This document shows, piece by piece, positions 2,784 through 34,417 of a DNA stretch of 64,000 nt (positions within the stretch are counted from its first letter, which is position 1; every line of letters starts with the position of its first letter). The DNA lies in contig NZ_JAGIAW010000005.1 of the NCBI RefSeq assembly GCF_017744655.1, positions 186,001 to 250,000 of the forward strand, written 5' to 3'. A model generated the notes under the pieces. It saw nothing but the letters and a program-made list of their open reading frames with translations. It was not told the origin of the DNA and made no database searches. This DNA is from Devosia sp. (GTDB lineage: Bacteria; Pseudomonadota; Alphaproteobacteria; Rhizobiales; Devosiaceae). A program made the position numbers and the translations under genes.

Positions 2784-3734
2784 GTGACCCTCTATATCCT
2801 CCGCCGCATCTTCGGCTTTCTCGTCACCCTCCTCATCGCTGCCGCCGTCATATTCTTCCTGCTCGATCTCCTCCCCGGTGATCCCGCGCGCTTCATCCTC
2901 GGCATCAATGCCACGCCCGAAGCCGTGGCAGCTCTCCGCCTGCAGATGGGCCTAGACGACCCAGCCATTGTCCGCTTCGGCAACTGGCTTTTCGGCATGC
3001 TGCGCGGCGATTTTGGCCTGTCACAGACGCAAAAGTTGCCGGTGGCCGGCCTGATCGCCGACCGCATGGCCGTTACGCTGCCGCTGACCATCTTTGCCAT
3101 GGTCATCTCCGTCGTCATCGGCCTGCCGCTCGGCATTCTGGCGGCGCGGCATCGCGGCAAGATCATCGATACCGGGCTGATGATCCTCGCGCAGACTGGC
3201 GTCGCCATACCCAATTTCTGGTTCGGCATGCTGCTTACGCTACTCTTTGCCGTCACCCTGCGCTGGCTGCCGCCGGGCGGTTTTACGCCGTGGAATGAAG
3301 ATGCCTGGGCCTCGCTGCGCGGCCTCGTGCTGCCCAGCCTCGCGCTTGCCCTTCCCCAGGCCGCCATTCTCGCCCGCGTCATGCGCACGGCGCTCGTCGA
3401 TGTTTCGAGCCAGGATTTCATCCGCACTGCCCGCGCCAAGGGGATGACCTTTGGCGAAGCGCTATGGCGCCACGGCGTGCGCAATGCTCTGCTGCCCGTG
3501 CTGACAATCCTCGGCCTGCAGTTTGCTTTCCTCGTTGCCGGCACCATCATCGTCGAAAACGTCTTCTATCTTCCAGGCCTCGGCAAGCTGATCTACACCG
3601 CCATCATGGAGCGCGATCTGGTACTGGTGCGGAGTGCCACGATCATTCTCGTGCTGGTCGTCAGTTTCACCATGCTGGTCGTCGACCTTGCTTATGGCTT
3701 CGTCGATCCTCGTATCCGGGAGCGACGGGCATGA
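2784..3734 (+). CDS. ABC transporter permease, DppB type
   Basis: A 316-residue inner-membrane permease that forms half of the translocation channel with the next gene. It opens with LYILRRIFGFLVTLL, the usual DppB N-terminal helix, has about six transmembrane segments, and carries the coupling-loop region RTARAKGMTFGEALWRHGVRN near residues 215-235, where the ATPase docks. GTG at 2784 is preferred because the family N-terminus begins there and an SD-like G-run lies 10 bases upstream. Upstream codons in this frame only translate the repeat. It overlaps the next gene by ATGA. Confidence 0.93.
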   Translation: MTLYILRRIFGFLVTLLIAAAVIFFLLDLLPGDPARFILGINATPEAVAALRLQMGLDDPAIVRFGNWLFGMLRGDFGLSQTQKLPVAGLIADRMAVTLPLTIFAMVISVVIGLPLGILAARHRGKIIDTGLMILAQTGVAIPNFWFGMLLTLLFAVTLRWLPPGGFTPWNEDAWASLRGLVLPSLALALPQAAILARVMRTALVDVSSQDFIRTARAKGMTFGEALWRHGVRNALLPVLTILGLQFAFLVAGTIIVENVFYLPGLGKLIYTAIMERDLVLVRSATIILVLVVSFTMLVVDLAYGFVDPRIRERRA

Positions 3735-30854: not shown

Positions 30855-31010
30855 ATGGCCGATCTCGGAGCAGAGGGACTGAAGCAGTTGCGGCTCGACG
30901 CAAGGCGCGGCGCGCAGGTGCAGCGAATTCAACAGATGGTGCTGGCGGCGGGGATCGCGGCGCTGTGTGTGATCGGCGTTGCCGGGGTGTTTCTGGCGCA
31001 GGTGATGTAA
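30855..31010 (+). CDS. Small single-pass membrane protein (51 aa)
   Basis: A 51-residue frame, MADLGAEGLKQLRLDARRGA..., with a hydrophilic, Arg-rich N-terminal half and one hydrophobic helix near residues 29-48 (VLAAGIAALCVIGVAGVFLA). The ribosome site GAGGGAAGAGC immediately before ATG is strong, and codon use resembles the neighbours. It ends 57 bases before the response regulator, so cotranscription is plausible. No family is recognised. Confidence 0.65.
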   Translation: MADLGAEGLKQLRLDARRGAQVQRIQQMVLAAGIAALCVIGVAGVFLAQVM

Positions 31011-31067: not shown

Positions 31068-31739
31068 ATGCGAATTTTGCTTGTCGAAGACAATGAGGAC
31101 CTGGGCGAGGCCATCGAAAGACGGCTGCGCACGGCTGGTCACTCGGTCGACTGGGTGCGCGACGGCGCCGATGTGGTGTCCGCGGCCAAGGGCGAGGATT
31201 TCGACGCGGTGGCGCTCGACCTGATGCTGCCCAATCGCGATGGGATCGGTCTTATTGCGGAGCTGCGGCGGGAGAAATTTTCGGCGCCAATCCTGGTCAT
31301 TACCGCCCGCTCGGAGATCGACGACAAGGTGAGCCTGCTCGATCTTGGAGCGGATGATTATCTCGTAAAGCCGTTTGATCTGCGCGAGCTTGAAGCACGG
31401 TTGCGGGCGTTGATCCGGCGGACGGGCGGGAAGACGAGCAGTGTGCTAGCGCTGGGGGATCTGGAGCTGGATTTGGCGGGGCTCAATGCCAGTGTGGGCG
31501 GCAAGGCGCTGGAGCTGGGGCGGCGGGAGTTTCGGCTGCTCGAGATTCTCCTTACGCACGCGGGAAAAGTGGTCGCCAAGGAGCGGTTGATGAACCAGCT
31601 GTTCAATTTCGATGAGACCGTGTCGATCAATGCGCTGGAGCTGCATATTTCGAGATTGAGGAAGAAGCTGGAGCCGGCGCGGGTGGAGATCGGGACGGTT
31701 CGCGGGGTTGGTTATGTGGCGCGGGCGGTGAATGGGTAG
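31068..31739 (+). CDS. OmpR-family response regulator
   Basis: A 223-residue two-component regulator. The receiver (1-120) has the acidic pocket EDNED, the phosphoacceptor D51 in VALDLMLPNRDG, and Lys in YLVKPFDL. The winged-helix DNA-binding domain follows (about 125-220), marked by LGRREFRLLEILLTHAGKVV and the recognition region HISRLRKKLEP. It is paired with the sensor fusion gene 146 bases downstream, separated by a family B repeat. Its targets are not visible in sequence. Confidence 0.93.
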   Translation: MRILLVEDNEDLGEAIERRLRTAGHSVDWVRDGADVVSAAKGEDFDAVALDLMLPNRDGIGLIAELRREKFSAPILVITARSEIDDKVSLLDLGADDYLVKPFDLRELEARLRALIRRTGGKTSSVLALGDLELDLAGLNASVGGKALELGRREFRLLEILLTHAGKVVAKERLMNQLFNFDETVSINALELHISRLRKKLEPARVEIGTVRGVGYVARAVNG

Positions 31740-31760: not shown

Positions 31761-31878
31761 CACCCCCTCCCATCCTCCCCCATCAAGGGGGAGGTGTTGC
31801 ATCGCGTGCTTGGCACTTTCTCGTCACAACCACAGTCCCTGCACCTCCCCCTTGATGGGGGAGGATGGGAGGGGGTGA
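31761..31878. repeat. Family B palindromic repeat pair (copy 5)
   Basis: Units CACCCCCTCCCATCCTCCCC with ATCAAGGGGGAGGTG and CACCTCCCCCTTGATGGGGG with AGGATGGGAGGGGG. Its last arm GGGAGGGGG (31868-31876) is nine bases ahead of the GTG of the sensor fusion gene and seems to be its Shine-Dalgarno sequence. Confidence 0.88.
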
Positions 31879-31884
31879 CCCGGC

Positions 31885-34338
31885 GTGCCCACTAAAAAGT
31901 CCTTTTCCATCCGCAGACGCATTCTGGCGCTGGCTACGGTGCTGCTGCTCGCGGCTGCGGTGATCCTTATTGTCTTCATTCGCGACTATGCCGAGCGGGC
32001 GGCGGATCGGGCTTTTGATCGGTTGTTGGCGGCTTCCGCGCTGACGATTGGCGGAGCAGTGCAGGTCGAGGACGAGACCGTTATCGTCGAATTGCCCTTT
32101 GCTGCCTTTGCCATGTTTTCGGGGGCTGATCGGGTTTTCTATGCTGTCGAAGGGCCGGGTGGAGGGACGGTGACAGGCTATGAAGACCTCGCAGCGCAGA
32201 TGGACGAGACCAGTTCGGCGGAGCCGCGCTTTGCCGATATTTTGTACCACGGCGAACTGGTGCGAGTGGCGTCGATCGGGCGGCTGATTTCGACGGCGAG
32301 CGATACGGGATGGGTGACGATCCACGTTGCCGAGACGCAGAACCAGCGCGAGGCGCTGAGCAATGAAATCCTGTCCAATGCCATCGTGCCAGTGATTGCG
32401 CTGACGCTGCTTGCGGTGGGGCTGGTGTGGTTCGGTATTTCGCGCATGTTTGCGCCACTGACCGAGCTGGAGCACGAATTGGCGGCGCGGCCGCCCGATG
32501 ATCTGTCGCCGGTCAGCGTGCCGGTGCCGGTGGAAGTGGGGCAGCTCGTGGCGGCACTCAATGGGTTCATGGGGCGGCTGCAAAAGACCATGGAGCGGGT
32601 GAGCGGGCTGGTGGCGGAAGCCGCGCATGAGGTGCGAACGCCGCTCGCTTCGCTGCGGGCGCAGGCGGAAGTGGCGATGGATGAGCAGGACCTGGAGGCC
32701 ATGCGCGGGCGGGTTGGGCGCATTCATACGGGCGCGGTGCAGGCGAGCCAGTTAGTCAGCCAGTTGCTGATGGACGCGACGATTTCGCATCGCCTTGAAG
32801 CGCAGGACAGCGAGATGGTGGCGCTTTGGGGGATCATCGAGGAAGTGTGCCAGCGGCTCGATGGCGAGCAGTTGGAACGGGTTTCGCTCGATGCTTCGGA
32901 CGCGGCGCAGGCCGTGCAGGTGCGTGGGGATCGCGTGGCACTGCGCGAGATGATGCGCAATCTGATCGACAATGGCCTCACGTATTCCGAGGGGCCGGTG
33001 GAAATCGGTGCAGCGATCGCGGCCGACGAACTGGTGGTCACGGTGGGGGATCGCGGGCCGGGGATGGATGACGAGGAGAAGGCCAGCGTGCTCGAACGCT
33101 TCAAGCGCGGCAAGGCAAGCGCCGGAACGGTGGGGTCAGGGCTGGGGCTTTCCATTGTGGCGCGCGTAGCCGGGGCGCATGGCGGAAAGCTGCGGTTTGG
33201 TGACCGCGCGGGTGGTGGGCTGGTGGTCGAGGTGGCGCTGCCGCTGACGCGGGTGTCGCGGCGGGCTGGGCTCGTGGCATTTGCAGGGCTGGCGCTTGCC
33301 GCACTGTTGCTGGTGCCGGGCAATGCGGAGGCAGCATCGACGAACTATCCGGCGCCGGATGGGTCGAGCGGGACTGTGCTCACCATTGTCGGGGTGACGG
33401 ATACAAAGGTGTTTCAGGCCTTTGTCGCCGGTTTTCAGGCGGAGCGGCCCGAGGTGACGGTCACCTATGAGGAGATGGATTCGCTGCCGCTGTTCCGGCA
33501 GTTCCTTGATGGCACGCTGCCGGTGGCGCCCGATCTGCTGATTTCGTCGGCTTCGGACCTGCAGCTCAAACTCGCCAATGACGGGCATGCGCTGGCCTAT
33601 GACAGTCCCTATCTCGGCGACCTGCCCGATTGGGCGCATTGGCGCAACGAGGTGTTTGGCTTCACCTTCGAGCCGGCGGTGATCATCTACAATCCCGACC
33701 GGATTGCGCTCGAAGACGTGCCGCGGACGCATCTGAAACTGGCGGAGCTGCTGGAGACGGAAACGGAAAAATTCCGCGGGCAGATTGCGACCTATGACAT
33801 TGCGCTGTCGGGCGTGGGCTATCTGTTGGCGGCGCAGGACCAGACGATTTCCTCGACCTTCTGGCGGCTGGCGACGGCGTTTGGACGTGTCGGGGCACAG
33901 TTTTCGGGCTCGAGCCCGGCGATTTTGAATGGCGTGGCCGATGGGTCGCTGGCGCTTGGGTATAATGTGTTGGGCTCCTATGCCTTTGCGCGGCAGGCGG
34001 AGGGGGCCAATATCGAGATCGTGGTGCCCGACGATTATGTGCTGGTGCTGACGCGCTCGATGCTTATTCCCCGCGAGGCGAAAGAGGTCGGCCTGGCGCG
34101 GGCATTTGTCGATTTTGCGCTTTCGCCCGCGGGACAGGCAATTGCAGCGGGCGGTACGGCGCTGGGGTCGGTGGTGCCGGGATCGAGCGGGGACTGGACC
34201 AGCGAGGCGATTGCAGCGCGGGGGCGCGGGGTGATCCAGGCCATTCCGCTGGGGCCAAGCCTGCTTGTCGCGCTCGACACGCTCAGGCGGCAACGGTTTT
34301 TGGATACGTGGAAAGAGATCGTGTCGCCGAAGCTTTAG
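31885..34338 (+). CDS. Sensor histidine kinase fused to a C-terminal periplasmic solute-binding domain
   Basis: An 817-residue fusion. Order: TM1 (about 12-32), periplasmic sensor (33-165), TM2 (167-187), HAMP-like linker, HisKA with EAAHEVRTPLASL (H248), ATPase domain with N box MRNLIDNGLTYS and G boxes DRGPGM and GSGLGLSI, then at residue 456 a new hydrophobic segment GLVAFAGLALAALLLVPG ending AEA, and a type II solute-binding domain (484-817, FbpA/SBP family 1-like) with DLLISSASDLQLKLANDGHA and FAVSPAGQAI-like blocks. The kinase half resembles TctE-type sensors. The segment at 460-483 can be a third TM or an internal signal peptide; either puts the binding domain outside the membrane. GTG start. 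An in-frame GTG at 33253 could allow a free binding protein but has no close ribosome site. Confidence 0.92.
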   Translation: MPTKKSFSIRRRILALATVLLLAAAVILIVFIRDYAERAADRAFDRLLAASALTIGGAVQVEDETVIVELPFAAFAMFSGADRVFYAVEGPGGGTVTGYEDLAAQMDETSSAEPRFADILYHGELVRVASIGRLISTASDTGWVTIHVAETQNQREALSNEILSNAIVPVIALTLLAVGLVWFGISRMFAPLTELEHELAARPPDDLSPVSVPVPVEVGQLVAALNGFMGRLQKTMERVSGLVAEAAHEVRTPLASLRAQAEVAMDEQDLEAMRGRVGRIHTGAVQASQLVSQLLMDATISHRLEAQDSEMVALWGIIEEVCQRLDGEQLERVSLDASDAAQAVQVRGDRVALREMMRNLIDNGLTYSEGPVEIGAAIAADELVVTVGDRGPGMDDEEKASVLERFKRGKASAGTVGSGLGLSIVARVAGAHGGKLRFGDRAGGGLVVEVALPLTRVSRRAGLVAFAGLALAALLLVPGNAEAASTNYPAPDGSSGTVLTIVGVTDTKVFQAFVAGFQAERPEVTVTYEEMDSLPLFRQFLDGTLPVAPDLLISSASDLQLKLANDGHALAYDSPYLGDLPDWAHWRNEVFGFTFEPAVIIYNPDRIALEDVPRTHLKLAELLETETEKFRGQIATYDIALSGVGYLLAAQDQTISSTFWRLATAFGRVGAQFSGSSPAILNGVADGSLALGYNVLGSYAFARQAEGANIEIVVPDDYVLVLTRSMLIPREAKEVGLARAFVDFALSPAGQAIAAGGTALGSVVPGSSGDWTSEAIAARGRGVIQAIPLGPSLLVALDTLRRQRFLDTWKEIVSPKL

Positions 34339-34349
34339 CGTCTCACGAC

Positions 34350-34417
34350 GTCATTCCCGCGAAAGCGGGAATCTCCTAGTCGGCGGAAACAGGGATTCCC
34401 GCTTTCGCGGGAATGAC
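34350..34417. repeat. Family A (dRS3-like) repeat, copy 5
   Basis: Perfect arms 34350-34373 and 34394-34417 around a 20-base spacer, between the sensor fusion stop and dapD. Confidence 0.9.

Follow-up and report, generated by a model that had tools for sequence, protein, structure and literature searches.

How does a single reading frame come to hold both a sensor histidine kinase and a complete periplasmic solute-binding protein (SBP), and what does the product do? The question is raised by a gene in a 64,000-nucleotide stretch of Devosia sp. assembly GCF_017744655.1 (contig NZ_JAGIAW010000005.1, positions 186,001 to 250,000; hereafter the window). The gene lies at 31885..34338 on the forward strand and runs from a GTG start as one open frame of 817 amino acids. 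A preliminary description had proposed that a TctE-like kinase is joined here to a C-terminal binding domain, and Pfam bore out both the frame and the domains. The kinase half has the TctD/TctE-type domain set of periplasmic 2CSK_N (residues 21-162), HisKA (241-300) and HATPase_c (348-455), all above their gathering cut-offs; matches to SBP_bac_11/1/6/8, also above cut-off, follow the catalytic domain at about 506-768. A TctD/TctE-type kinase ends after HATPase_c as a separate protein. Here the SBP is fused behind it, and the protein is therefore a variant of that type, not a plain member. We consider it fairly probable that the gene encodes a TctD/TctE-type three-component sensor that carries its dedicated SBP at the C-terminal end, in one polyprotein with the kinase, and controls the tctCBA genes. 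This genome contains one full-length copy.

The joined frame recurs widely among soil and water bacteria. In 53 of 75 Devosia genomes the protein was found almost end to end in a single frame with no stops. The remaining 22 comprised two copies cut at contig ends (G056, G066), two disrupted frames (G013, G052), two pairs of separate genes (G058, G065), four genomes with only divergent matches (G002, G018, G030, G062) and twelve with no match to the fused protein at E ≤ 1e-60. Searches of 136 family genomes and of 397 order genomes (two candidates scored per genome in the latter) gave more fused copies, at 33-74% identity, along with many genomes in which kinase and SBP are encoded by separate neighbouring genes; in G086-G089 these lie on opposite strands. 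The same kinase-SBP order, a search for which across the order had been proposed, is thus present among the 397 order genomes. A scan of a named genome collection, biased to close relatives by keeping the best 80 of 532, scored 79 of the 80 as single-frame, which overstates the frequency of fusion and includes three cut or interrupted copies (L159, L167, L183). Its fused forms came from Alphaproteobacteria (Devosia, Pelagibacterium, Mesorhizobium, Aureimonas, Labrys, Alsobacter, Azospirillum, Skermanella and several Rhodobacterales) and from Beta- and Gammaproteobacteria (Bordetella, Achromobacter, Alcaligenes; Thorsellia), the nearest named relative among the best 80 of 532 being Devosia riboflavina (96% in the best segment). 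Some genomes were present in both collections; duplicates were dropped at 90% identity for the hydropathy set and at identical upstream DNA for the box set used below.

The preliminary description had named a frameshift or stop between the two domains, or relatives that always carry two genes, as grounds for doubting the fusion. Neither was found: the 53 Devosia genomes share the intact frame, and fused relatives occur in several clades. A sequencing or assembly artefact that joined two genes was rejected, its probability being practically nil, since the same joined frame occurs in those 53 genomes and in other families; the two frame-disrupted Devosia genomes could be cited in its favour, though they concern breaks, not joins. 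Broken frames were also seen in the named collection, in two Devosia genomes (L081 and L183/L084) and, within the SBP part, in Mesorhizobium sediminum (L159). Locus L161 comes from a record titled Mycobacterium sp. KBS0706, and its fused system, accompanied by TctA and TctC, is of alphaproteobacterial type; this genome is probably mislabelled.

The two halves meet at the third hydrophobic segment, which was found as described (residues about 458-483, 33256..33333, ending in AEA at 483). Two roles had been offered for it, a tether that makes the SBP part of a membrane receptor or a site of release after AEA, and the comparisons made here appear to favour release over covalent tethering. In the window the joint reads PGNAEA/ASTNYPAPDG, with the predicted signal peptidase I cut (slash) after Ala483, at base 33333. 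The segment varies in sequence among fused proteins while its pattern stays constant. Across 95 fused representatives the maximum 19-residue Kyte-Doolittle hydropathy of the joint was 1.83±0.28, matching the N-terminal regions of 36 separate SBPs (1.83±0.32, from stop-to-stop frames) and far below the first transmembrane helix (TM1) of the same 95 proteins (2.91±0.33). A strict A-x-A motif followed the hydrophobic core of the joint in 67 of 95 proteins, against 48.7 in shuffles, and TM1 in 26 of 95 (shuffles 48.8); separate SBPs had it in 25 of 36 (19.4). The loose form [AVSTGLI]-x-A was present at all 95 joints (shuffles 88.8) and after 65 of 95 TM1 segments (87.7). Plain AxA counting was discarded as proof of cleavage: the loose form is uninformative in an Ala-rich stretch, and weight was therefore placed on the hydropathy comparison and a positional profile. 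For 65 of the 95 proteins the mature N-terminus could serve as anchor; in these, alanine occupied position -1 in 75%, -3 in 54% and -2 in 17%, and proline stood at -6 in 29. The signal peptidase pattern predicted at residue 483 is thus repeated in relatives, including separately fused clades. In an AlphaFold model built from 48 sequences (mean predicted local distance difference test score, pLDDT, 83.5; predicted template modelling score, pTM, 0.64), residues 456-483 formed no helix and had pLDDT below 50.

Cleavage by signal peptidase I is proposed because of the joint hydropathy, the positional AxA profile, the lack of an AlphaFold helix and the lack of start-codon enrichment described below. 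The third segment has the features of an internal Sec signal peptide rather than of a membrane anchor, and the product is probably cut into a kinase and a free SBP. At the level of sequence only, the protein has the makings of a polyprotein, namely an internal signal peptide and a signal peptidase I site between two proteins. Several points weigh against cleavage. The loose motif does not discriminate, separate SBPs scoring 33 of 36 where shuffles gave 33.3; the profile leaves out 30 of the 95 fused proteins, for which no anchor was available, and among the 65 included, 5 show no [AVSTGLI]-x-A within the 12 positions preceding the anchor. AlphaFold confidence also fell below 50 at 203-208 and over most of 219-247, which makes the low confidence at 456-483 weak evidence. 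A lipobox-like Cys was present in 6 of the 95 fused representatives, whose SBPs may be lipid-anchored, and similar motifs were found in 3 of the 36 separate SBPs (L073, L074, L085).

Were the third segment to stay in the membrane as an anchor, the SBP would sit covalently on the kinase and sense in cis, its local concentration being fixed. Such tethering would suit the long maintenance of the fusion in several clades, which a mere polyprotein would not strictly need, and the lipobox-like motifs suggest that membrane retention may matter in some of these proteins. We nevertheless regard it as unlikely, given a joint with the hydropathy of a signal peptide, the positional AxA pattern with its frequent Pro at -6, a model without a helix at the joint, and two genomes (G058, G065) that carry the halves as separate genes. 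Very improbable is a start inside the frame that yields a free SBP with its own signal peptide, the long frame then being a pair of in-frame overlapping genes. Kinase and SBP genes are adjacent or overlapping in many relatives, so an old internal start could persist. However, an in-frame start was present in the joint linker of 90 of 95 proteins, against a fraction of 0.91 of 1004 windows within the kinase; the corresponding figures were 16 of 95 against 0.15 for starts with a Shine-Dalgarno-like motif and 43 of 95 against 0.52 for ATG. Since the linker is not enriched in starts or in Shine-Dalgarno-like motifs, internal initiation was rejected as the source of a free SBP.

The history of the fusion was traced on a tree of 135 kinase-SBP pairs (the 95 fused representatives, at <90% identity, and 40 separate pairs). 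By parsimony, eight fused/separate changes were needed, against about 34 with shuffled labels. One of the eight is a non-event, the 'separate' entry L183 being a frame-disrupted fused gene, and another is the split in G058/G065. If separate genes are ancestral, a presumed direction of change, fusion would have arisen several times, up to six; several of the nodes that separate fused clades have low support (0.15-0.77). Among the separate pairs there are many whose kinase gene reaches or overlaps the SBP gene, so that loss of a stop or a minor in-frame change would suffice to join the two. At L073 and L074 the kinase stop is directly followed by an in-frame SBP frame with a lipobox-like motif (LAGC/LAAC), one codon from fusion; these SBPs are probably membrane-anchored. 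G058 and G065 are nested in a large fused clade (nearest-node support 0.957 and 0.991 in a first tree, 0.849 and 0.999 in the 135-pair tree), with separate genes in the order regulator-SBP-kinase. Their SBP signal peptides end before the same mature start as the fused SBP (ATA/ATTYAAP and VMA/ASTYPAP), that of G065 also having a lipobox-like match. We read these two as a secondary split of a fused gene in which the genes were re-ordered. The first tree omitted L081-L084, L096, L103 and L119 (broken, cut or single-gene loci), and its 'SBHK' label of L113 is an artefact of stop-to-stop frames. It appears reasonably probable that the fused proteins form a class of polyprotein two-component receptors, split by signal peptidase I, with several origins (up to six by this parsimony count) and at least one reversal with re-ordered genes.

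The ligand of the SBP was considered next. The preliminary description had called the binding domain FbpA-like; it is an SBP, but its nearest structures are 3c9h and MctA, well ahead of the ferric-binding proteins. The top Foldseek matches were 3c9h, an Agrobacterium tumefaciens SBP (E about 5e-30), and the MctA series (about 1e-26 to 1e-24), and phmmer gave 6e-61 against 3c9h and 6e-42 against 7f6e (MctA). Iron was rejected as ligand, the ferric-binding proteins ranking far below MctA in the fold search. The MctA entries in the PDB are titled metal-citrate-binding protein, some with Mg-citrate or citrate bound. Six residues mutated in MctA (S26, D28, S79, S164, T199 and Y221) correspond here to V504, D506, S555, S642, S677 and Y699, respectively; four are identical, T199 is conservatively replaced by Ser, and in place of S26 stands Val. 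Across 48 fused SBPs the residue was kept in 48 (D506), 46 (S555), 47 (S642), 47 (S/T677) and 47 (Y699). According to the PDB titles, MctA S26A is still seen with a Mg2+ complex, which fits the variable position 504; D28A is listed with citrate and the other four mutants as apo. From the closest structures, the kept site residues and the transporter linkage set out below, we infer that the ligand is probably citrate, metal-citrate or a related di/tricarboxylate.

Two observations count against this ligand class. The position of MctA S26 is not kept, being Val504 here and T/A/V/S/P elsewhere. In a study of Azospirillum brasilense Sp7 (PMC11837500), the levels of two tctC products on fructose exceeded those on malate 8.2- and 37.9-fold, and by their annotated positions both tctC genes lie near a fused gene. 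The fructose response would suit an SBP that senses a sugar or sugar phosphate, like its distant relatives AfuA and VcA0625, with the transporter carrying that compound; so would the fold search, in which these glucose-6-phosphate SBPs form the next class (VcA0625 E 3e-15, AfuA E 3e-14). We hold a sugar ligand to be rather doubtful. The sugar-phosphate SBPs, at 3e-15 and weaker, fall far behind the MctA series, the MctA site residues are mostly retained, and growth on malate may, at a guess, simply repress. Known substrates of tripartite tricarboxylate transporters (TTT), nicotinic acid excepted, also seem to bear two carboxyl or similar groups (PMC5812351).

A tricarboxylate ligand is in keeping with the genes found nearby. 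TctA was encoded within the fetched stretch of 57 of the 80 named loci (best 80 of 532). By annotated neighbours, regulator, fused gene and tctCBA stand together in Peteryoungia, Azospirillum and Sulfitobacter, as do regulator, separate kinase and SBP genes and tctCBA in Mariluticola; the separate-gene copies of Bradyrhizobium and Bosea had no tctCBA in the neighbourhood shown. The tctCBA genes of the present genome lie directly beyond the window end, and their TctA and TctC are 89% and 85% identical to proteins encoded directly beside the Devosia marina fused gene. A tandem box, TGACAGG-N4-TGACAGG, was found with at most one mismatch of 14 ahead of 50 of the 53 distinct tctC genes picked at ≥60% identity to D. 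marina tctC (33 exact), and mononucleotide shuffles gave no box at 0-1 mismatches. Allowing two mismatches, a repeat spacing of 11 was found in 50 of the 53, and spacings of 8-10 and 12-15 in only 0-2. OmpR-family sites are laid out in this way. This genome has a single exact box, which lies about 80 bases ahead of the probable TTG start codon of tctC. The exact form was present in 42 of the 59 Devosia genomes that carry a fused-clade gene, be it whole, cut, broken or split, and in none of the 16 without; a reversed control pattern was absent from all 75. Extra exact copies occur in G013, G038 and G047, with position checked for only part of the copies. The likely target is the tctCBA tripartite tricarboxylate transporter, with the regulator predicted to bind the box.

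There is evidence on the other side. Of the 80 named loci, 23 had no TctA in the fetched stretch, and in this genome 30 kb separate the sensor gene from tctCBA. The Fisher test of exact box against fused-clade gene (p 1.4e-7) ignores relatedness. With one mismatch the box is present in 113 of the 136 family genomes, some of which lack the gene, and only the exact form is therefore telling. The box also precedes tctC where kinase and SBP genes are separate, making it independent of the fusion. No box stood above chance before the regulator gene in the window scan (5 window matches at ≤3 mismatches, 3.6 expected), and a site there was rejected.

At nine named loci (L163-L165, L169, L170, L172, L177, L184, L195) a second, stand-alone SBP gene follows the fused gene; a scripted count gave ten, the extra L159 being a piece of its own interrupted frame. 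At L164 and L195, the two of the nine checked with Pfam, this second, same-family SBP is followed by an ATP-binding cassette (ABC) permease and ATPase. At loci of this type, what such a sensor controls may be an ABC importer in place of a TTT transporter.

The system has known counterparts. In Bordetella pertussis, BctDE exerts two-component control of tctCBA-type genes, and citrate-loaded BctC activates the kinase BctE (PMC5812351, PMC9602780). The likeness lies in a TctDE-type two-component system with TTT transporter genes. In BctDE the signalling SBP is the transporter's own and has a separate gene, whereas the kinase described here carries behind it, in the same chain, an extra SBP from another family (MctA/3c9h-like). 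HptA of Staphylococcus aureus HptASR is a dedicated sensing SBP for the kinase HptS, which turns on the transporter (PMC8774646). HptASR differs in its separate genes, glucose-6-phosphate ligand and Gram-positive host. We take HptA to belong to the same broad SBP fold as the SBP described here. MctA (PDB 7f6e and others), the closest characterised SBP, is a stand-alone SBP of an ABC transporter with no kinase, and has Ser26 where Val stands here. SBP-type domains also act as periplasmic sensors in BvgS and EvgS, ahead of the kinase core in one chain (PMC8534201). In the fused protein the SBP instead comes after the ATPase domain, behind a signal-peptide-like segment, and in addition to a 2CSK_N sensor domain. 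For a polyprotein made in this way the precedent is Bradyrhizobium FbcH, cytochrome b/c1, in which one gene with an internal signal peptide gives two partner proteins through signal peptidase; FbcH is a respiratory enzyme and no sensor. The parts are known, and the arrangement is a variant. No description of a kinase-SBP architecture in this order was found in the open-access literature, which was represented mostly by titles and the beginnings of abstracts.

The proposed mechanism starts from one chain, as read from the sequence. TM1 and TM2 would put 2CSK_N on the periplasmic side of the membrane and the kinase core on the cytoplasmic side, a topology based on family knowledge and the model. 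This membrane part spans 31909..32484 (TM1, helix 9-57; 2CSK_N, 21-162; TM2, helix 153-200); both helices were modelled mostly at high pLDDT, dropping to 58 at 191-200. The kinase core, HisKA and HATPase_c, is encoded at 32605..33249. Its His248 (codon 32626-32628), presumably the phospho-acceptor, is identical in 48 of 48 aligned fused proteins; the HisKA region was modelled more weakly (block means 48-76) and the SBP confidently. The internal signal peptide (about 458-483) would then take the SBP across the membrane, and by comparison with relatives signal peptidase I would cut after AEA483, leaving kinase and free mature SBP at 1:1. The predicted mature part (residues 484-817, 33334..34335) holds the MctA equivalents D506, S555, S642, S677 and Y699 and, judging from structures, site residues and transporter linkage, would bind metal-citrate or a related di/tricarboxylate. 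By analogy with BctC/BctE and HptA/HptS, the loaded SBP would dock on the periplasmic domain of the kinase and alter its activity; it probably signals to the existing 2CSK_N domain rather than being the whole receptor. As expected of a three-component system, the SBP is encoded with the kinase, fused here and as a separate neighbour in relatives. In the last step the regulator would bind TGACAGG-N4-TGACAGG upstream of tctC and turn on tctCBA.

If this mechanism holds, kinase and soluble ligand-sensor would reach the membrane jointly, in equal numbers and at one and the same site. SBP-activated kinases are believed to be widespread, and few have been characterised (PMC9602780). Kinase-SBP pairs are hard to call; one study saw no sign that SBPs encoded near two kinases activate them (PMC11113362). 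The fusion labels such a pair by evolution itself, and the fused proteins form a testable set, for which the cut site, the ligand class and the regulator box are all predicted. The plasmid records inspected give the fused protein no name other than 'extracellular solute-binding protein', and kinases of this type are therefore easily missed in sensor counts.

The OmpR-type response regulator that had been named as partner of the kinase lies just upstream on the forward strand (31068..31739) and has Response_reg and Trans_reg_C domains. Its top NCBIfam match was TctD, at 196 bits against a model cut-off of 337, with PmrA nearly equal at 194. A homologous frame was present in 83 of 86 loci examined; in the other three (L123, L135, L167) the locus starts at or just before the fused gene. 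Between the regulator and kinase genes stands an inverted repeat with 36-base perfect arms (31761..31877), which is incidental. Copies resembling it occur in several other Devosia loci and not in all relatives; at L131, for example, the regulator and kinase genes nearly touch. A second palindrome with 24-base arms (34350-34417), directly 3' of the fused gene, looks like a dispersed repeat, with similar copies in several Devosia loci. The 51-residue membrane protein tentatively added to the system corresponds to a frame at 30855-31010, before the regulator; Pfam gave no match for it. It does have one hydrophobic stretch, and tblastn found similar sequences in other Devosia loci, among them L121, where the relative (3517-3663) also lies directly ahead of the regulator frame.

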